Source of the DNA: Streptomyces sp. NBC_00539
GTDB taxonomy: Bacteria; Actinomycetota; Actinomycetes; Streptomycetales; Streptomycetaceae
Length of the DNA stretch: 64,000 nucleotides
Direction: 5' to 3'
NCBI RefSeq assembly: GCF_036346105.1
Contig: NZ_CP107811.1
Location: 744,001 to 808,000 of the forward strand
Under the pieces are notes generated by a model that did no database searches, was not told the DNA's origin, and saw only the letters and a program-made list of their open reading frames with translations. Each line of letters opens with the position of its first letter. Positions within the stretch are counted from its first letter, which is position 1. The position numbers and the translations under genes are program-made. Positions 4,166 to 51,091 of the stretch are shown here, piece after piece.

Positions 4166-4897
4166 TCAGGCCGCGGTGTTCCAGGCGGTCGTCAGTCCGT
4201 CCAGCCACGCGGGCGGCAGCTCCGCCGCGTCCCATTCCTCGCGCAGCGCCTGCGGTGCGGCGAGGAGCCGCTCCAGCACGGCGATGCTCGTGGACGAGTG
4301 CAGGAGCGAATAGCGGCCGTGCACCGCGATGGCGCTGCCCGGACCGAATGCCGCGAACAGCCGCTCCAACCGGTCCCGGTGGACCGTGGCGAACTCCGTC
4401 AGCCGTCCCGGGTACCCGGCCCGCTGCCGGGGGCTCATCGTGGCCAGGACGGCGGCGAGCACCTCTTCGGTCACCTCCGGATCCAGCTCCGAGACCACGG
4501 TGTACGACAGGTGCAGAGGTGTCAGCGCCACCCGCGCCCGCTCCACCTCCATCCGGCCGGCCCTCGGGTGCTCCCCGGCCGTGCCCGGCTCTTCGTCCGC
4601 CCCCACCACCTGCAGCAGGGTCCGCTCGGCCACGGCGCCGAGCTCTTCCAGGAGGTGTCCGGCACCGTCGAGCCAGCCCGTCGCGTACTCCTGGCCCTTG
4701 TCCCCGGGCGCGCTGCGTCCTTGGCCCCGCAGCTCCTCGTGGGCGAGAGCCAGCGCACCCGCCTCGACCAGCCCGATCAGTTCGCTCGCGTCGTCCGAAG
4801 GGACCCCGGCCCGGGCGAGGAGCTGCAGCAGCGTCGTCCTCGCGTTCTCGACGCTGACCTCGTCCAGCCACTGCCGTCCCTCGTCGGCCGCGCTCAT
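4166..4897 (-). CDS. Hypothetical protein, 243 aa
   Basis: The product is acidic and mostly helical (SVENARTTLLQLLARAGV, EELIGLVEAGALALAHEEL), with no signal peptide, membrane segment or catalytic motif that I recognise. The start at 4897 (MSAADEG) follows GAGGAGGAACCG; an upstream in-frame ATG at 4966 has no ribosome site. It converges on the small membrane protein gene across a 19-bp repeat array. Likely cytoplasmic; function unknown. Confidence 0.75.
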   Translation of the reverse strand: MSAADEGRQWLDEVSVENARTTLLQLLARAGVPSDDASELIGLVEAGALALAHEELRGQGRSAPGDKGQEYATGWLDGAGHLLEELGAVAERTLLQVVGADEEPGTAGEHPRAGRMEVERARVALTPLHLSYTVVSELDPEVTEEVLAAVLATMSPRQRAGYPGRLTEFATVHRDRLERLFAAFGPGSAIAVHGRYSLLHSSTSIAVLERLLAAPQALREEWDAAELPPAWLDGLTTAWNTAA

Positions 4898-5389
4898 CGG
4901 TTCCTCCTCATCGCTCGGGTGGTGCGGTGTGTGCAACGAGACCGCTCCCCTCATCCAACGGTCCAACGTCCGACGGCCGGGCCGTGCTCCCCACCCCTAC
5001 CAGACCCACGGCCCTCGCGCCCCGTCCGCCTGGCCGGCCGGCGGACGAGGCGGCGCACGTACGGGGAAGGGCGATGACGCCACAACCGGAACCGATCACC
5101 GTCGACGGCGGCAAAGACTACCCAGCCGATCGGGCCGCCCGGTCCACGGGCAATTCGTCAGCGCCGGGCCGACGGCGCGCACGAGACGCCGAGCCGGACG
5201 AACCCGGACAGCCGCCTGCTGGTCAGCGGCTCCGGTTGGACCTTCCGCCGACGGGACAGCGCGTCCATGGTCAGGAAAGCACATTGCGTGACGGCGGGTT
5301 GAACCATTGGATTGCCTTCCGCGCCCTTGGTCCGATCGGAACCCCCACCGGCCCCGGTGCCGGTGGGATCCGGCTCCGGAAGGAAACGA
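4898..5389. other. 492-bp intergenic region between divergent genes
   Basis: This region separates the divergent genes at 4166-4897 and 5390-6517 and should hold both promoters. The open frames across it have no family features. I see no RNA gene, repeat or clear promoter hexamers. Confidence 0.5.
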
Positions 5390-6555: not shown

Positions 6556-7038
6556 TCAGCCTGGGCGTTGGCTCGGTCGTTGGGTTCGGCGGCTCGCCGC
6601 GTTGCGGACGCGGCGGGTGCGTCCGTGCTCGGCCAGCAGGCTGAGGGCGGCAGGCGAGGTGACGAGCTGGGCGGCGGCGGCCGTGCGCTGGAACCAATCC
6701 GAAGCGGTCAGCAGTTCCTCGTCGGTCCACGGCTCGTCCAGCGCGAGGGACCTCAGCAGAGTCCACTCGTGCAGGCGACGGGCGAGGAAGGCGCGATCGC
6801 CGATGACCGTGGCCATCATCGAGGCCCAGGCGGGAAACCGGGGGCTGGTCAGCTGCTGGGCCGCCCGGCGTTCGAGGTGACGGTTCACGGCGCTCTCGGC
6901 CATGGCTGCGTCGTCGTCGCGAAGGATGGTGGCCAGCAGGTCGGCCTCCTCCACCTCCGCGACGCTCTCCAAGGCGCGCAGGTATCGGGCATGGCGCCGG
7001 TGCTCGGGGGGTTCGTCGAATTCGTGAGAGCCGGTCAT
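6556..7038 (-). CDS. Hypothetical protein, 160 aa
   Basis: A helical, charged protein (LESVAEVEEADLLATILRDDDAAMAES, RRLHEWTLLRSLALDEPWTDEELL) with a basic C-terminus. The spacing of helices suggests a HEAT- or TPR-like fold, but no repeat is clear enough to name. No signal peptide or membrane segment is present. The start is ATG at 7038. It is convergent with the truncated ligase gene, 38 bp away. Confidence 0.65.
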   Translation of the reverse strand: MTGSHEFDEPPEHRRHARYLRALESVAEVEEADLLATILRDDDAAMAESAVNRHLERRAAQQLTSPRFPAWASMMATVIGDRAFLARRLHEWTLLRSLALDEPWTDEELLTASDWFQRTAAAAQLVTSPAALSLLAEHGRTRRVRNAASRRTQRPSQRPG

Positions 7039-7133
7039 GCGGCAATCACATCATCCCGCTCGACCATCTGACCACGTTCGAAGCAGGCTCCGGCGGGGGG
7101 ACAAGGTGGGCGCCTGCCGGCGGGCATTCTGGT

Positions 7134-7588
7134 CGGGGTGGGTCAGGACGACATGATGAAGCGCAGGGCGAGGCCGGAGGCCGGGATCCAGTAGGTGACG
7201 CGGGCACCGTCGTCGAACGACACCTGGCCGGGCAGGCTGACGTTCACCGGCTCGCTCGGCTTGCTGCCGGGGTTGGGGCCCCGGAGGCCAAGGGGAATGG
7301 TGTTCGTGTCGTACGTGTCCATGTGGCCGCCGCTGGCCAGGAGGGCCGCGTACGCCTTCTCACCCGGAGCGAGGGTGGCGGGCGCCTCCTTGCTGTCCTC
7401 GATCACGGCGATCGGGGCCCTGGCGTAGGGGAACTTGAGGTACGGGTATGCGTAGAGGTTGCACTTCTTGTTCCCGGTGTTGGTGACGGTGAGGAGGAGG
7501 TGCCTGACGGGCTTGCCCTTCTCGTCCTCGTTCGTGGCGGACAACGCGAGATCGGTCACCGCACACGCGACGATCGCGGCAGGCGCAG
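7134..7588 (-). repeat. Left arm of a 455-bp inverted repeat
   Basis: The reverse complement of 7134-7588 matches 8844-9298 at 452 of 455 positions by direct comparison. It spans the DUF4232-like C-terminal module of the gene at 7143-7958 plus 9 bp past its stop codon. Homology ends abruptly on both sides. Confidence 0.97.
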
Positions 7589-7958
7589 TGGCGGACGCCC
7601 CACCGGCGGTGGGAGCGGGGGGTGTTGGGCCGGCGAGGGTAGGCGCTGTCGGGGAGGGCTCGTTGGACGGGGGCACGCTTGCGGCAGGCGCAGCGGGGGA
7701 GGCCGCATCGGCCGTGGGCGCGGTGAGGGAGGCGGCGGGTGGTAGTGCGGGGTGCCGGTGGGGCTCCGGGCCGCCCAGGGCCGTGGTCAGGCCGAAGGCG
7801 AGGGTCGCGACCGCTGCAACGGTGCCTCCCGCGAGGGCGGAGTACCGACGGCGTCGCCGGGAAGCGGCCCGGCGTCGGACCTCCGCACCCGTCATGGGCG
7901 CGGGGCTGGCGGCGCTGTCGGCCAGCTCGCGCAGTGCGGAGGACAAGTCATCGGCCAC
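7143..7958 (-). CDS. Membrane-anchored DUF4232-type protein coupled to the ECF sigma gene
   Basis: A 271-residue protein with a cytoplasmic N-terminus of about 38 residues ending in a run of arginines, one membrane segment (YSALAGGTVAAVATLAFGLT), a Pro/Ala/Thr-rich linker and a C-terminal module of about 145 residues of the secreted DUF4232 type. The GTG start at 7958 follows AGGAGGAAGACC and lies inside the 3' end of the sigma gene, an 11-bp overlap that implies translational coupling. The arrangement of sigma followed by a short cytoplasmic tail and one membrane helix suggests an anti-sigma or sensor partner, although no zinc-binding anti-sigma motif is visible. The C-terminal module is almost identical to that of the lipoprotein at 8579-9289. 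Confidence 0.85.
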   Translation of the reverse strand: MADDLSSALRELADSAASPAPMTGAEVRRRAASRRRRRYSALAGGTVAAVATLAFGLTTALGGPEPHRHPALPPAASLTAPTADAASPAAPAASVPPSNEPSPTAPTLAGPTPPAPTAGGASATAPAAIVACAVTDLALSATNEDEKGKPVRHLLLTVTNTGNKKCNLYAYPYLKFPYARAPIAVIEDSKEAPATLAPGEKAYAALLASGGHMDTYDTNTIPLGLRGPNPGSKPSEPVNVSLPGQVSFDDGARVTYWIPASGLALRFIMSS

Positions 7959-8475
7959 GGTCTTCCTCCTGTTCCTCGCCACTTGCGCCCACCACACCGA
8001 CCTCACTCGTCGGCAGCAACGTGGCGAGGGCTGCCCGGCCGCGTGACAGGCGGGCCTTGACCGTACCTGTCGGTGCGCCGGTCTCGGAGGCTACCTGCTC
8101 CACACTGAGGTCACACAGGTGGTGCAGCACTATCGCCAGACGCTGGGGCTCTGGGAGCTGCCGCAGCGCCGCGACGAGGGCGACGTGCTCGGGACCGGGT
8201 CCAGGGACGTGATCGGGTAGCGGGGTGCGGCGTACCAGCTCCAGCCACCGCCGCGCCCGCCGCCAGTGGCTGACCGCGAGTCGCATCGCGACGGTGCGGA
8301 TCCAGGCTTCGGGGGCCGCGGTGGCAAGGAAGTCACTCCGCCGGTCCCAGGCACGTACGAAGGCTTCCTGAACAACGTCCTGGGCTTGGCCGTGGTCACC
8401 GGTGAAGGAGTACACCTGGCCGACGATCCGTGGGAACGCCGACGCGTAGAACGCGTCGAACTCGTCCTCCGTCAT
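7948..8475 (-). CDS. ECF-type RNA polymerase sigma factor
   Basis: The 175-residue product has sigma region 2 (MTEDEFDAFYASAFPRIVG, GHGQAQDVVQEAFVRAWDR) and region 4 (LPEPQRLAIVLHHLCDLSVE then VASETGAPTGTVKARLSRGR), the layout of group IV sigma factors. The start at 8475 follows GGGGGGTGGT; the longer upstream frame codes for nothing conserved. It is followed with overlap by the membrane protein gene and is divergent from the lipoprotein gene at 8579. The shared 103-bp promoter region is a likely site of self-regulation, though I could not find an unambiguous GGAAC-type promoter. The gene sits between two 455-bp inverted repeats. Confidence 0.93.
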   Translation of the reverse strand: MTEDEFDAFYASAFPRIVGQVYSFTGDHGQAQDVVQEAFVRAWDRRSDFLATAAPEAWIRTVAMRLAVSHWRRARRWLELVRRTPLPDHVPGPGPEHVALVAALRQLPEPQRLAIVLHHLCDLSVEQVASETGAPTGTVKARLSRGRAALATLLPTSEVGVVGASGEEQEEDRGR

Positions 8476-8578
8476 ACCACCCCCCGGTCCCAAAACTCTT
8501 CCGATCCTCATGCAACCCGCTGACTCCTGGCGTGCGTACAGGTCGTGTACAGCGAAGAACACCACACAGGGGGCTCTG

Positions 8579-9289
8579 TTGACCAGGGGAAACAAGGCAA
8601 TCAGGAAGGCGGCGGCCGCGGCCGTCCTCGGCGCGCTGCTGCTCGCGTCCACGGCGTGCGAGCCGAGCGGGGCCGACGTATCGGGCGACTCCAAGAGCTC
8701 GGAACAGCCGAGCGCGGGGAACGCGCCGAAGACGGGGGAAACCGCTTCGGCGAAGCCGGGCGAGGCTCAGGCGAAGCCCGGCGAGAGTCAGGCGAAGCCC
8801 GGCGGTGGTTCGGGCAGCGCCGGCGGCGAAACCAGTAAGCCCTCTGCGCCTGCCGCGATCGTCGCGTGTGCGGTGACCGATCTCGCGTTCTCCGCCACGA
8901 ACGAGGACGAGAAGGGCAAGCCCGTCAGGCACCTCCTCCTCACCGTCACCAACACCGGGAACAAGAAGTGCAACCTCTACGCATACCCGTACCTCAAGTT
9001 CCCCTACGCCAGGGCCCCGATCGCCGTGATCGAGGACAGCAAGGACGCGCCCGCCACCCTCGCCCCGGGTGAGAAGGCGTACGCGGCCCTCCTGGCCAGC
9101 GGCGGCCACATGGACACGTACGACACGAACACCATTCCCCTTGGCCTCCGGGGCCCCAACCCCGGCAGCAAGCCGAGCGAGCCGGTGAACGTCAGCCTGC
9201 CCGGCCAGGTGTCGTTCGACGACGGTGCCCGCGTCACCTACTGGATCCCGGCCTCCGGCCTCGCCCTGCGCTTCATCATGTCGTCCTGA
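8579..9289 (+). CDS. Probable lipoprotein with DUF4232-type domain
   Basis: A 236-residue product with a lipoprotein-like signal (RKAAAAAVLGALLLASTAC), a flexible linker containing AKPGE/AQ/SQ repeats, and a C-terminal DUF4232-type module that differs at only two residues from that of the protein at 7143-7958. The best start is TTG at 8579 after AGGGGG; an ATG frame opening at 8510 lacks a ribosome site and would bury the signal peptide. It is probably anchored outside the membrane. Sharing a module and a promoter region with the sigma operon points to a common signal or surface target. Confidence 0.82.
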   Translation: MTRGNKAIRKAAAAAVLGALLLASTACEPSGADVSGDSKSSEQPSAGNAPKTGETASAKPGEAQAKPGESQAKPGGGSGSAGGETSKPSAPAAIVACAVTDLAFSATNEDEKGKPVRHLLLTVTNTGNKKCNLYAYPYLKFPYARAPIAVIEDSKDAPATLAPGEKAYAALLASGGHMDTYDTNTIPLGLRGPNPGSKPSEPVNVSLPGQVSFDDGARVTYWIPASGLALRFIMSS

Positions 9290-9298
9290 CCCACCCCG
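8844..9298 (+). repeat. Right arm of the 455-bp inverted repeat
   Basis: This is the partner of 7134-7588. The three mismatches cause one Leu/Phe and one Glu/Asp exchange and one silent change. The segment between the arms (7589-8843) is 1,255 bp and carries the sigma gene and the unique N-terminal halves of both flanking genes. Confidence 0.97.
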
Positions 9299-9308
9299 GC
9301 ACAGCACG

Positions 9309-9350
9309 AAAGGGGAGGGTCGCCGCGTTGGTGCGGCTGTCCTCCCCTTT
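9309..9350. terminator. Hairpin between convergent genes
   Basis: A 10-bp stem, AAAGGGGAGG with CCTCCCCTTT, has a further CCGC/GCGG pairing in its loop. It lies between the lipoprotein gene and the convergent GPP34 gene and can serve both strands. Confidence 0.75.
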
Positions 9351-9398
9351 CCTATCCTGTATCGGCGTTGTCCGGCACCGCACTCGCGGGGGCAGAAC

Positions 9399-10007
9399 TC
9401 AGGGGGCCCGCCAGACGTTGGAGAAGGCCGCGTTCTCGATGGACCGCCGCTGGCGCACCGCCTCCAGTTCCATCACGGCACCGTTGACGGCGGCCAGCAC
9501 GGTGGTCACCGCGTCGCCGTCCGGGCCGGGAGCGTCCTCGGAGGGTCCGCGGCGGATGCCGACGGCCACGGCGAGGGCGCGGAGGACGGGTTCGTCCTCC
9601 TCCCAGCGCCTCCGCGCCCGCTGCCGGGCCGGTGAGTCGACGAGTTCCAGGTGCTCGGCCCCGAGCGACAGGCGTCCGCGCCGAGCCGGAGACAGCAGGC
9701 CGTCCTCTTCGAACGCCTCCTGGTAGGCGGCGGACAGGTCGCGGCCCCTGCGCCACAGCCAATCGTCGACGCGCTCGTACGGCTCCTGTCGCACGAGCGC
9801 CGACGCTGCCGCCCCGAGCAGCTGATCGTCCAGCGCCGGCTGCAGGCCGGGCAGGATGAGGTCGTCGTCGTCGAGAGTGACGGCCTCCGCCGCGATGAGA
9901 TCGATCAGTTCGGCACCGGCCAGGGACAGGGACAGGTCACCCTGTCCCACAGGGCGCTCGGGCGGAGCCTCCAGGGCGACGATGAACAGGTCTTGCGCCG
10001 TGGTCAT
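9399..10007 (-). CDS. GPP34/GOLPH3-family protein
   Basis: The 202-residue product begins MTTAQDLFIVALEAP and continues with SLSLAGAELIDLIAAEAVTL-like and a DDWLWRRGRDL helix, the pattern of the GPP34 family related to eukaryotic GOLPH3/Vps74, which bind phosphoinositides. In actinomycetes these are cytosolic proteins of unknown role, often found near signalling conservons. The start follows AAGGAGCTCTTC. It stands alone here, convergent with the lipoprotein gene. Confidence 0.82.
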   Translation of the reverse strand: MTTAQDLFIVALEAPPERPVGQGDLSLSLAGAELIDLIAAEAVTLDDDDLILPGLQPALDDQLLGAAASALVRQEPYERVDDWLWRRGRDLSAAYQEAFEEDGLLSPARRGRLSLGAEHLELVDSPARQRARRRWEEDEPVLRALAVAVGIRRGPSEDAPGPDGDAVTTVLAAVNGAVMELEAVRQRRSIENAAFSNVWRAP

Positions 10008-10080
10008 GAAGAGCTCCTTCGTGGTCGGCCGAACCAGCCTCCCGTCGCTGCCGGCGACGGTGCGGGTGCGATGCGGGTGC

Positions 10081-10140
10081 GGGTTCGGGTTCGGGTTCGG
10101 GTTCGGGTTCGGGTTCGGGTTCGGGTTCGGGTTCGGGTTC
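10081..10140. repeat. Ten perfect GGGTTC hexamers
   Basis: Sixty bases are ten uninterrupted GGGTTC copies, preceded by degenerate GCGGGT(G/T)-type units. It sits between the start of the GPP34 gene and the end of the next gene, in no coding frame that I believe. Frames through it would encode Pro-Glu or Phe-Gly repeats. Confidence 0.97.
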
Positions 10141-10231
10141 GGGGCAAGTATCGTCCCTGGGCTGATCGGCCGTCCGGCAGGAGGCTCGGCCGGCCGAGGT
10201 CCCGAGGGTGACCGTACGGCAGCTCCCGACC

Positions 10232-49814: not shown

Positions 49815-49840
49815 GGCGGGACCGTCAAGGGGGCACGGCG

Positions 49841-51091
49841 TCAGGCGCCCTCGGCCTCCTCGGCCACCGGGGCCATCGGGACCGCCGGGACCGCCGGGAC
49901 CGCCGGGACCGCCGGGACCGCCGGGACCGCCGGGACCGCCGGGACCGCCGGGACCGCCGGGACCGCCGGGACCGCGGGGGCCGCGGGGGCCGCGGGGGCC
50001 GCCGGGACCGCCGGGGGGCCGTACATCAGGGCCAGCCCGGCCAGTACGGAACCCGCGCCGGCGCACAGCACCGTCACGACGCCCGCCCAGGCGTGGGGGC
50101 CGCCCAGCGCCCCGGCCAAGGGGTCGAACACGGCAATGCCGCCGGCGAGATGGAGCGCGACCACCCCGAGCGCGGCGACCGCCGCCGCCCGCCACACCGC
50201 CGGGGTGTCCCGCACCGCCAGCAGCACGCCGAGCCCGAGGCAGAGCACCGCGACGACCGTCGCCAGATGGCCCACGGGGCCGGCGGCCGGCAGGGCGGCC
50301 GGGTCCCCGGGCAGGTGCACGACCCCGCACAGCAGCAGTGCGGCGGCCGCGGGCCAGCGCAGTACGTGGTGCAGGACGCCGGGCCGCGCCCGGGCGGGCT
50401 CTCGGCCGGGGGGCGGGGGCGGCTGCGGGGCCTGCTCCGAGCGGGGCGCGGTGTCCGGGTCCTCGGGGATTGCGGCACCGGGGCCGCCACCGCCCCCCTC
50501 CCCGCCGCTCTCGCCGTCCCCGCCGTCCCCGCCGCCCCCGGCCTTCTCGGCATGGGCGGTGGGGGCGGTGGGGGCGGTGGGGGGCTCGCCGGCGGCGGGT
50601 ACGTCCGCGGGGGGTCCGTGCGGCGAGGCGGCGGGTTCCGTCGGCCGGCCGGAGCCGCCGCCGAGGGTCCGGGCCAAGATCGCCACGTCCTCGACGGACC
50701 GGCCGAGGGCTGCCGCACGCAGCGCGATCCCCGCCTCGACCTCCCCGTCCGCAGGCTCGCCCAGCAGGGCGACCATGAGCCGGACGTCGTCGACGGAACG
50801 CGACACGGCGGCCGCGGCCACCGCCTCCTGTCCGGACCGGGACAGCAGACCCGTCTCCTTCAAGAGGCCCACCAGGGCCGTGACCTCCTCGACGGGCCGG
50901 CAGGTGGCCGCCGTGTCCAGCAGGGTCCGTACCGTCTCCGGTGACACTCCGGCCGACGCGACGGCCGCAGGAGGTCCGGGGCTGGCGGATCCTTCGGTCG
51001 GCTCGGAGTGGGCGTGGGCCCCGTCCCGGACGCTTTCGGGGTCGCCGTCGGGGTCCTCGTACCGGGCCGCGCGGAAGTTGAGGTCGTTCAT
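49841..51091 (-). CDS. Membrane protein with low-complexity AVP-repeat tail
   Basis: The 416-residue protein has a helical cytoplasmic part (about 1-150, [20 protein letters not shown] repeated in similar form three times, with [18 protein letters not shown] and [18 protein letters not shown]), a Gly/Glu/Pro linker, four membrane segments at about 245-365, and a C-terminal tail of Val-Pro-Ala repeats. The N-terminal (R)SV-D/E-DV repeats look like a helical repeat module for protein binding. ATG at 51091 (MNDLNFRA) is preferred over one at 51115. Function unknown. Tail length may vary, because the DNA is a 9-bp tandem array. Confidence 0.8.
49878..49967. repeat. Ten copies of a 9-bp repeat, GGGACCGCC
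   Basis: The array runs from 49878 in perfect 9-bp steps, with degenerate copies to about 50020. It encodes the Ala-Val-Pro tail of the membrane protein in frame. Confidence 0.93.

Follow-up and report, generated by a model that had tools for sequence, protein, structure and literature searches.

In the BlaR1/MecR1 systems with BlaZ, the receptor carries a module that is homologous to a secreted enzyme under its control. Duplicated genes in bacteria, such as those of the rRNA operons, can undergo gene conversion, a process in which recombination keeps copies alike, and in Streptococcus pneumoniae inversions by PsrA and of the hsdS genes reportedly involve inverted repeats in or between genes, with inversion recombining gene parts. 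Here, we describe a locus of Streptomyces sp. NBC_00539, contained in a 64-kb stretch of DNA (contig C1, positions 744001–808000; this whole stretch is referred to as the window), in which two near-identical, mirror-image arms enclose a gene for an extracytoplasmic function (ECF) sigma factor of the SigE family and encode the C-terminal DUF4232 modules of two different proteins, a membrane protein (M) and a lipoprotein (L). Unlike in conversion of the rRNA type, just the 3′ modules of two unlike, divergently encoded proteins appear to be homogenized at this locus, and the arrangement permits inversion. While in the S. pneumoniae cases inversion is said to alter the protein and the recombinase is known, the arms described here restore one and the same module, and the neighboring proteins that were scanned include no recombinase.

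On the side of the sigma factor, a parallel is provided by SigI-RsgI of Clostridium thermocellum, in which, according to the passages of PMC12203970 that concern this system, the membrane partner of the sigma factor bears an outer module as found in secreted enzymes (carbohydrate-binding, glycosidase). Such an effector-type outer module on the membrane partner of a sigma factor is a precedent for M. Compared with SigI-RsgI as portrayed there, the module and the lipoprotein are here divergently encoded at one locus and are apparently kept identical by recombination; moreover, no RsgI domain was found in M, whose presumed role as a regulator of the sigma factor is suggested by the operon layout and by this precedent. 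A search of the open-licence PMC literature returned no match for the present layout and no mention of DUF4232.

A repeat search of the window placed the arms at positions 7134–7591 (arm 1, minus strand) and 8841–9298 (arm 2, plus strand), 458 nt each and separated by a spacer of 1249 nt; they were the sole inverted repeat of at least 60 nt reported in the window (seed 16). The arms are identical at 454 of 458 bases, with mismatches at positions 7589/8843, 7542/8890, 7386/9046 and 7368/9064. The initial annotation of this DNA, which had put the identity at 452 of 455 bases, was right in this respect, the arm being in fact a few bases longer. It had also recognized that each arm encodes, in frame, a DUF4232-like module, and Pfam indeed matched DUF4232 (PF14016) in both proteins (E-values of 3.5e-16 and 2.9e-16), with scores of 60 bits in M and 60.2 bits in L, above the gathering cut-off of 27 in either case. 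Arm 1 comprises the module and stop codon of M and arm 2 those of L, each arm ending about 9 bp past the stop codon of its gene. When the arm DNA was searched against the whole genome, two places were reported and no third match, and a third copy of the module elsewhere, acting as a donor, was rejected on this basis. Four other DUF4232 genes were reported for the same genome (C1:6666544, C1:3109394, C1:6345681 and C2:18027). A search for a solved structure of the DUF4232 module found none, the best match (E-value of 0.18) being an unrelated enzyme.

M (7143–7958, minus strand) and L (8579–9289, plus strand) were found where they had been annotated, and the ECF sigma gene lies between the arms at 7948–8475 (minus strand). 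The sigma protein scored 168 bits against TIGR02983 (cut-off 141.55), with matches to the Sigma70_r2 and r4_2 regions; a close paralog in this genome was rejected, as the second-best match is 34% identical. The GTG start of M overlaps the 3′ end of the sigma gene, falling within its last codons, and the two genes look like an operon. M is composed of a short, charged N-terminus, a hydrophobic segment at about residues 41–63, a linker rich in Pro, Thr and Ala, and the DUF4232 module. Judging from hydropathy, the segment at residues 41–63 would be a membrane segment; it tops the hydropathy profile in six of the seven M proteins considered below, while in the M protein of the window it reaches 1.55, narrowly under the 1.58 at residue 123. 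L starts with a TTG codon and shows a lipobox-like LASTAC motif, a low-complexity linker and the DUF4232 module. The unique inner segment (7592–8840) holds the sigma gene, the divergent promoter region and, from both M and L, the N-terminal half.

The unit recurs in other genomes. A first look at 100 relatives and a genus search of 393 genomes identified the whole unit in the genome of the window (G000) and in G038, G401 and G054. A draw of 395 genomes from the family found it in G000, G627, G644 and G707, the last of which shows the same coordinates as Streptomyces cirratus JCM 4738 (G432) and was counted with it as one genome. No additional unit came from sampling the genus a second time or from sampling around G627 (362 and 366 genomes, respectively). 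The unit is thus present in a total of seven genomes (window, S. cirratus, G038, G401, G054, G627 and G644), and we rejected the idea that the arms are an assembly artifact on these grounds.

Within each of these genomes, the coding parts of the two arms are equal or nearly so, differing at 3 of 426 positions in the window, 2 in S. cirratus and G644, none in G038 and G401 and 5 in G054 (426 positions each), and at 6 of 405 in G627. Synonymous divergence (dS) between the arms of one genome is 0–0.04, as opposed to 0.125–0.43 for the L arm and 0.107–0.36 for the sigma gene between genomes; the copies are closer within than between genomes, synonymous sites included. In a maximum-likelihood tree (IQ-TREE), the arms pair by genome, with support of 99–100 for six labelled pairs, the two arms of the window joining at the basal trifurcation. 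In the proteins, variation between genomes affects 58 of 142 module columns, as against just six mismatches between M and L summed over the seven pairs, and a seven-residue deletion in G627 is found in both arms. The identical tract ranges from 398 to 494 nt across genomes and extends to the latter length in G038, where L has an M-type linker. Between species, the module evolves faster than the sigma factor (non-synonymous divergence [dN] of 0.04–0.17 for the arms versus 0.018–0.055 for sigma), and both modules are open and in frame in all seven genomes.

These comparisons demonstrate, at the level of sequence, that the arms have been homogenized within each of the seven genomes, i.e. have undergone concerted evolution. 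Because all seven have the same N-terminal halves fused to the module, the duplication looks older than their split; since the arms are equal today all the same, repeated conversion would be required. That gene conversion keeps the two modules identical, as the initial annotation had offered as one possibility, is strongly supported in all seven genomes. The outcome that would have spoken against its reading, one orientation throughout and arms diverged at neutral rates, was looked for in the related genomes and is contradicted by them.

The inner segment occurs in both orientations among the genome records. A comparison of its orientation among related genomes, as the initial annotation had proposed, found the segment inverted in the draft assembly of S. 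cirratus, with the order L (minus), sigma (plus) and M (plus) as opposed to M (minus), sigma (minus) and L (plus) in the window, between flanks that are collinear on both sides. The collinear flank proteins are 82–96% identical and comprise n4166 and an AMP-binding protein on one side, and GPP34, ADH, glycosyl hydrolase and DAGK proteins on the opposite side. A hairpin lies outside the L arm of S. cirratus (−45.3 kcal/mol, z −5.31). In 84 comparisons of mini-flanks, with 200 shuffles each, five beat all shuffles. The S. cirratus L-side hairpin matched the M-side flanks of G038 (score 60) and of the window (score 31), with 0 of 200 shuffles in each case, and the L-side flank of G401 matched the L-side hairpin of the window (score 47; 0 of 200). 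Same-side pairs were unremarkable (S. cirratus M with window M, 20 of 200; S. cirratus L with window L, 27 of 200; S. cirratus L with G038 L, 37 of 200). The pair of G627 and G644 M-side flanks also beat all shuffles; it was treated as possible chance and was not used. G644 is in an S. cirratus-like state relative to two flank genes.

Several observations weigh against an inversion. The S. cirratus genome consists of about 60 draft contigs, in which a near-exact repeat of 446 bp could be mis-oriented, so that an assembly error is possible. The L-side mini-flank of the window compared with the M-side one of S. cirratus was no better than shuffles (43 of 200), although a longer window flank (8841–10083) does align across the S. 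cirratus M-side arm. In G644, the inverted state depends on flank genes that are 2.7 kb off and on one side only. Taken together, the case for inversion is well supported by these alignments: at least one inversion very probably took place, the S. cirratus lineage being the simplest place for it, and G644 may reflect another.

The initial annotation had predicted that an inversion would regenerate both fusion proteins, and this prediction is borne out by the arms, each of which supplies a complete module and stop codon. It had further suggested that a flip matters by reversing the sigma operon; this idea is not supported, as the segment itself contains the promoter region together with the 5′ portion of each gene. 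A promoter-like block of the ECF type (TGCAACC-N17-CGTAC; 8511–8539, within a conserved block at 8511–8541, plus strand) precedes L within the segment and is found before L in all seven units; a stricter version of the pattern has one match in the genome. Since a flip moves the promoters together with the 5′ gene parts and leaves every arm able to supply a module with its stop codon, it should be close to silent, and a regulatory switch is not supported. Inversion would carry both promoters along with their genes and swap the hairpins that lie outside the arms. Of these, a terminator-like hairpin after L (T2; 9308–9351, plus strand) has a predicted energy of −34.4 kcal/mol (z −3.39), while a remnant after M (T1; 7113–7133, minus strand) shows no significant fold (z −0.23). 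As the hairpins would be exchanged and only the L-side one is strong in the window, read-through into the neighboring genes could change upon a flip, and this could be the sole remaining route to a regulatory effect.

To place the unit in a wider context, we compared it with 73 related sigma loci that lack the repeat (71 from the genus search and 2 from the first look; L063–L066 and L103–L171), whose sigma proteins are 60–87% identical to that of the window. The N-terminus of M is similar in most of them, and the promoter-like block, with a spacing of N15–17, occurs somewhere in 55 of the 73. In 69 of the 73 loci, M has an outer domain that is YkuD-like (L,D-transpeptidase-like) by blastp; three loci yielded no M due to a contig end. 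Pfam recognized YkuD in 35 of 70 related M proteins and DUF4232 in none. Among 71 divergently encoded proteins, picked by an open reading frame (ORF) rule, it found Big_10 in 26, YkuD in 23 and again no DUF4232; among the other divergent ORFs, some are of different kinds and some were not assigned. Of the 71 divergent proteins, 23 contain the catalytic HGC motif, which no M protein among the 70 shows; 21 loci have M together with a divergently encoded HGC (YkuD) protein. In G390, the M module and the YkuD domain of the lipoprotein are 32% identical over 122 positions (E-value of 2e-10). Homology between the modules of M and L in the window, and between M and YkuD in a related locus, is what a sensor-effector pairing of the BlaR1 or RsgI kind would show. 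The YkuD-type loci, with a Cys-less module in M and an apparently intact enzyme in the lipoprotein, resemble BlaR1/MecR1-BlaZ in this regard; the latter systems differ in that they are without a sigma factor, involve other protein families and have modules that are not known to be homogenized.

Loci of this type thus often combine a Cys-less module on the sigma factor's partner with a secreted lipoprotein whose module is intact, with the clade of the window having DUF4232 on both, and we consider this module pairing the most valuable new point. The window locus may accordingly be read as a sensor paired with a lipoprotein, the modules of both having been swapped from YkuD to DUF4232, and it is possible that the YkuD loci are receptor/enzyme pairings in their own right. 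A gene of the kind found in G012 (L016), which encodes a DUF4232 lipoprotein and lies without a sigma gene (46% identity in the module, 44% in the N-terminus), could have been the source of the DUF4232 module. In the sigma-E regulon of Streptomyces coelicolor, the portion of PMC6767563 dealing with its targets lists the YkuD lipoproteins sco3194 and sco4934 and describes an AAC at the −35 position. YkuD lipoproteins under sigma factor control would be a point of likeness, which does not imply orthology to the divergent lipoproteins of the present loci; DUF4232 is not mentioned in that portion.

The surroundings of the unit vary. When eight neighboring genes of the window were tested against about 9 kb to either side of the unit, six were recovered in S. 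cirratus, two in G644, one in G627 and none in G038, G401 or G054; the G038 unit resides on a linear plasmid (583 kb) that belongs to Streptomyces sp. NBC_01276. Because the flank genes mostly differ among its genomes, the unit looks like a transferable accessory set. A phage origin was considered and rejected, L being without a match in 50,697 phage records. Downstream of M, the window has a hypothetical gene (6556–7038, minus strand) whose counterpart in the single-contig genome G627 (L086 11061–11477) lies on the same side and in the same orientation and starts 7 bp past the M stop codon; this proximity suggests that, in some species, a gene of this type could be part of the sigma operon. 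No counterpart was found in S. cirratus.

A number of further features were observed around the units. In G401 (L061), a second inverted repeat (4760–4996 and 8109–8345, 237 nt, 99%) lies near the unit; a transporter-like ORF is located between its copies, and an ORF (7140–8309) that by eye resembles an IS630-like transposase runs with its 3′ end into the right copy. In G038 (L060), the linear plasmid carries, directly beyond the outer end of the M arm, an ORF (about 8097–8400) that by eye looks like a transposase fragment. An 8-bp tandem repeat (CAGACAGC) is found in G644 (L087) immediately outside the L arm, just past the L stop codon. The window itself contains GGTTCG hexamer repeats (10074–10143) just upstream of the GPP34-domain gene (9399–10007) and, farther away, a long 9-bp tandem repeat (49828–50042) with units of the CCGCCGGGA type in 16 registers at spacing 9.

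Based on these results, we propose that a SigE-family sigma factor and its membrane partner M would be produced from one operon, divergent from the lipoprotein L. M would restrain or tune the sigma factor, and its outer module would read the same ligand or surface as the module of L. L would be the product of a sigma-driven promoter, and for that reason the two modules would have to stay matched. Homologous recombination between the arms would maintain this match, conversion being the usual outcome and crossover, leading to inversion, an occasional one. We lean, without great confidence, towards this explanation as a whole, in which recombination homogenizes or flips the arms and the matched modules of M and L serve sigma factor sensing. 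Some findings weigh against it: no anti-sigma or other Pfam/NCBIfam family was recognized in the N-terminus of M; 48 of the 71 related divergent proteins are without the HGC motif, so that module pairing is not universal; and at L152, L155 and L160 the divergent protein stops after Big_10 while M retains its YkuD-like domain. Homogenization could also be a recombinational by-product, in which close inverted repeats convert and sometimes flip, the duplication is just maintained and module identity has no functional value. We take this seriously but hold it to be the less probable account. A single molecule carries both arms at a distance of 1.25 kb, identity stops where homology stops, tract lengths differ among genomes (398–494 nt) and a dS near 0 is explicable without selection, all of which a by-product would predict, as it would the patchy pairing in related loci. 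It sits less easily with modules that stay open and in frame in seven of seven genomes, with a module that outpaces sigma between species while the partners stay equal, and with the 21 related loci that combine M and a divergent HGC protein.

Other accounts appear much weaker. A phase-variable switch, in which a flip alters how strongly the sigma operon or a neighbor is expressed in part of the population, could draw on the existence of both orientations between records, on the degraded hairpin after M in the window and on the gene 7 bp past M in G627, such that inversion might expose the neighbor to read-through from a different promoter. We consider it improbable, given that the segment takes the promoter region and the two 5′ parts along, that both fusions are restored by a flip and that none of seven window proteins scanned is a recombinase (no genome-wide recombinase search was made). 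Site-specific inversion was set aside, since the arms are long, plain coding sequence and that scan of seven proteins, with the same limit, gave no recombinase. It is more improbable still that, in place of conversion, each species duplicated the module recently and independently or received a pre-duplicated unit by transfer. The G038, G401 and G054 units have no common flank genes and one of them is on a linear plasmid, so whole-unit transfer is likely; yet the same N-terminal halves are joined to the module in all seven, which argues for a duplication older than the split, substitutions and one deletion are genome-specific and common to both arms, and transfer of the unit alone does not equalize arms. 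Purifying selection on the protein module alone would explain why the M and L modules are equal save for six residues, but is already contradicted by synonymous sites that are near-equal within genomes and not between them, and we regard it as barely tenable.

Partners that recognize the same thing usually co-evolve via slow compensating mutations. Here, the layout of the DNA itself appears to equalize the partner modules in seven genomes, despite a module that outpaces the sigma factor, and the segment seems to have turned around with no obvious harm. As a more speculative and, in our view, unlikely extension of the proposed mechanism, the mirror layout might itself be an adaptation, with recombination between the close inverted copies transferring each new variant of a fast-evolving recognition module into the partner at once, so that lock and key co-evolve, even across a swap from YkuD to DUF4232. 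If matched modules matter, the locus would offer a testable system for how a receptor and its effector stay in step, and a handle on DUF4232.

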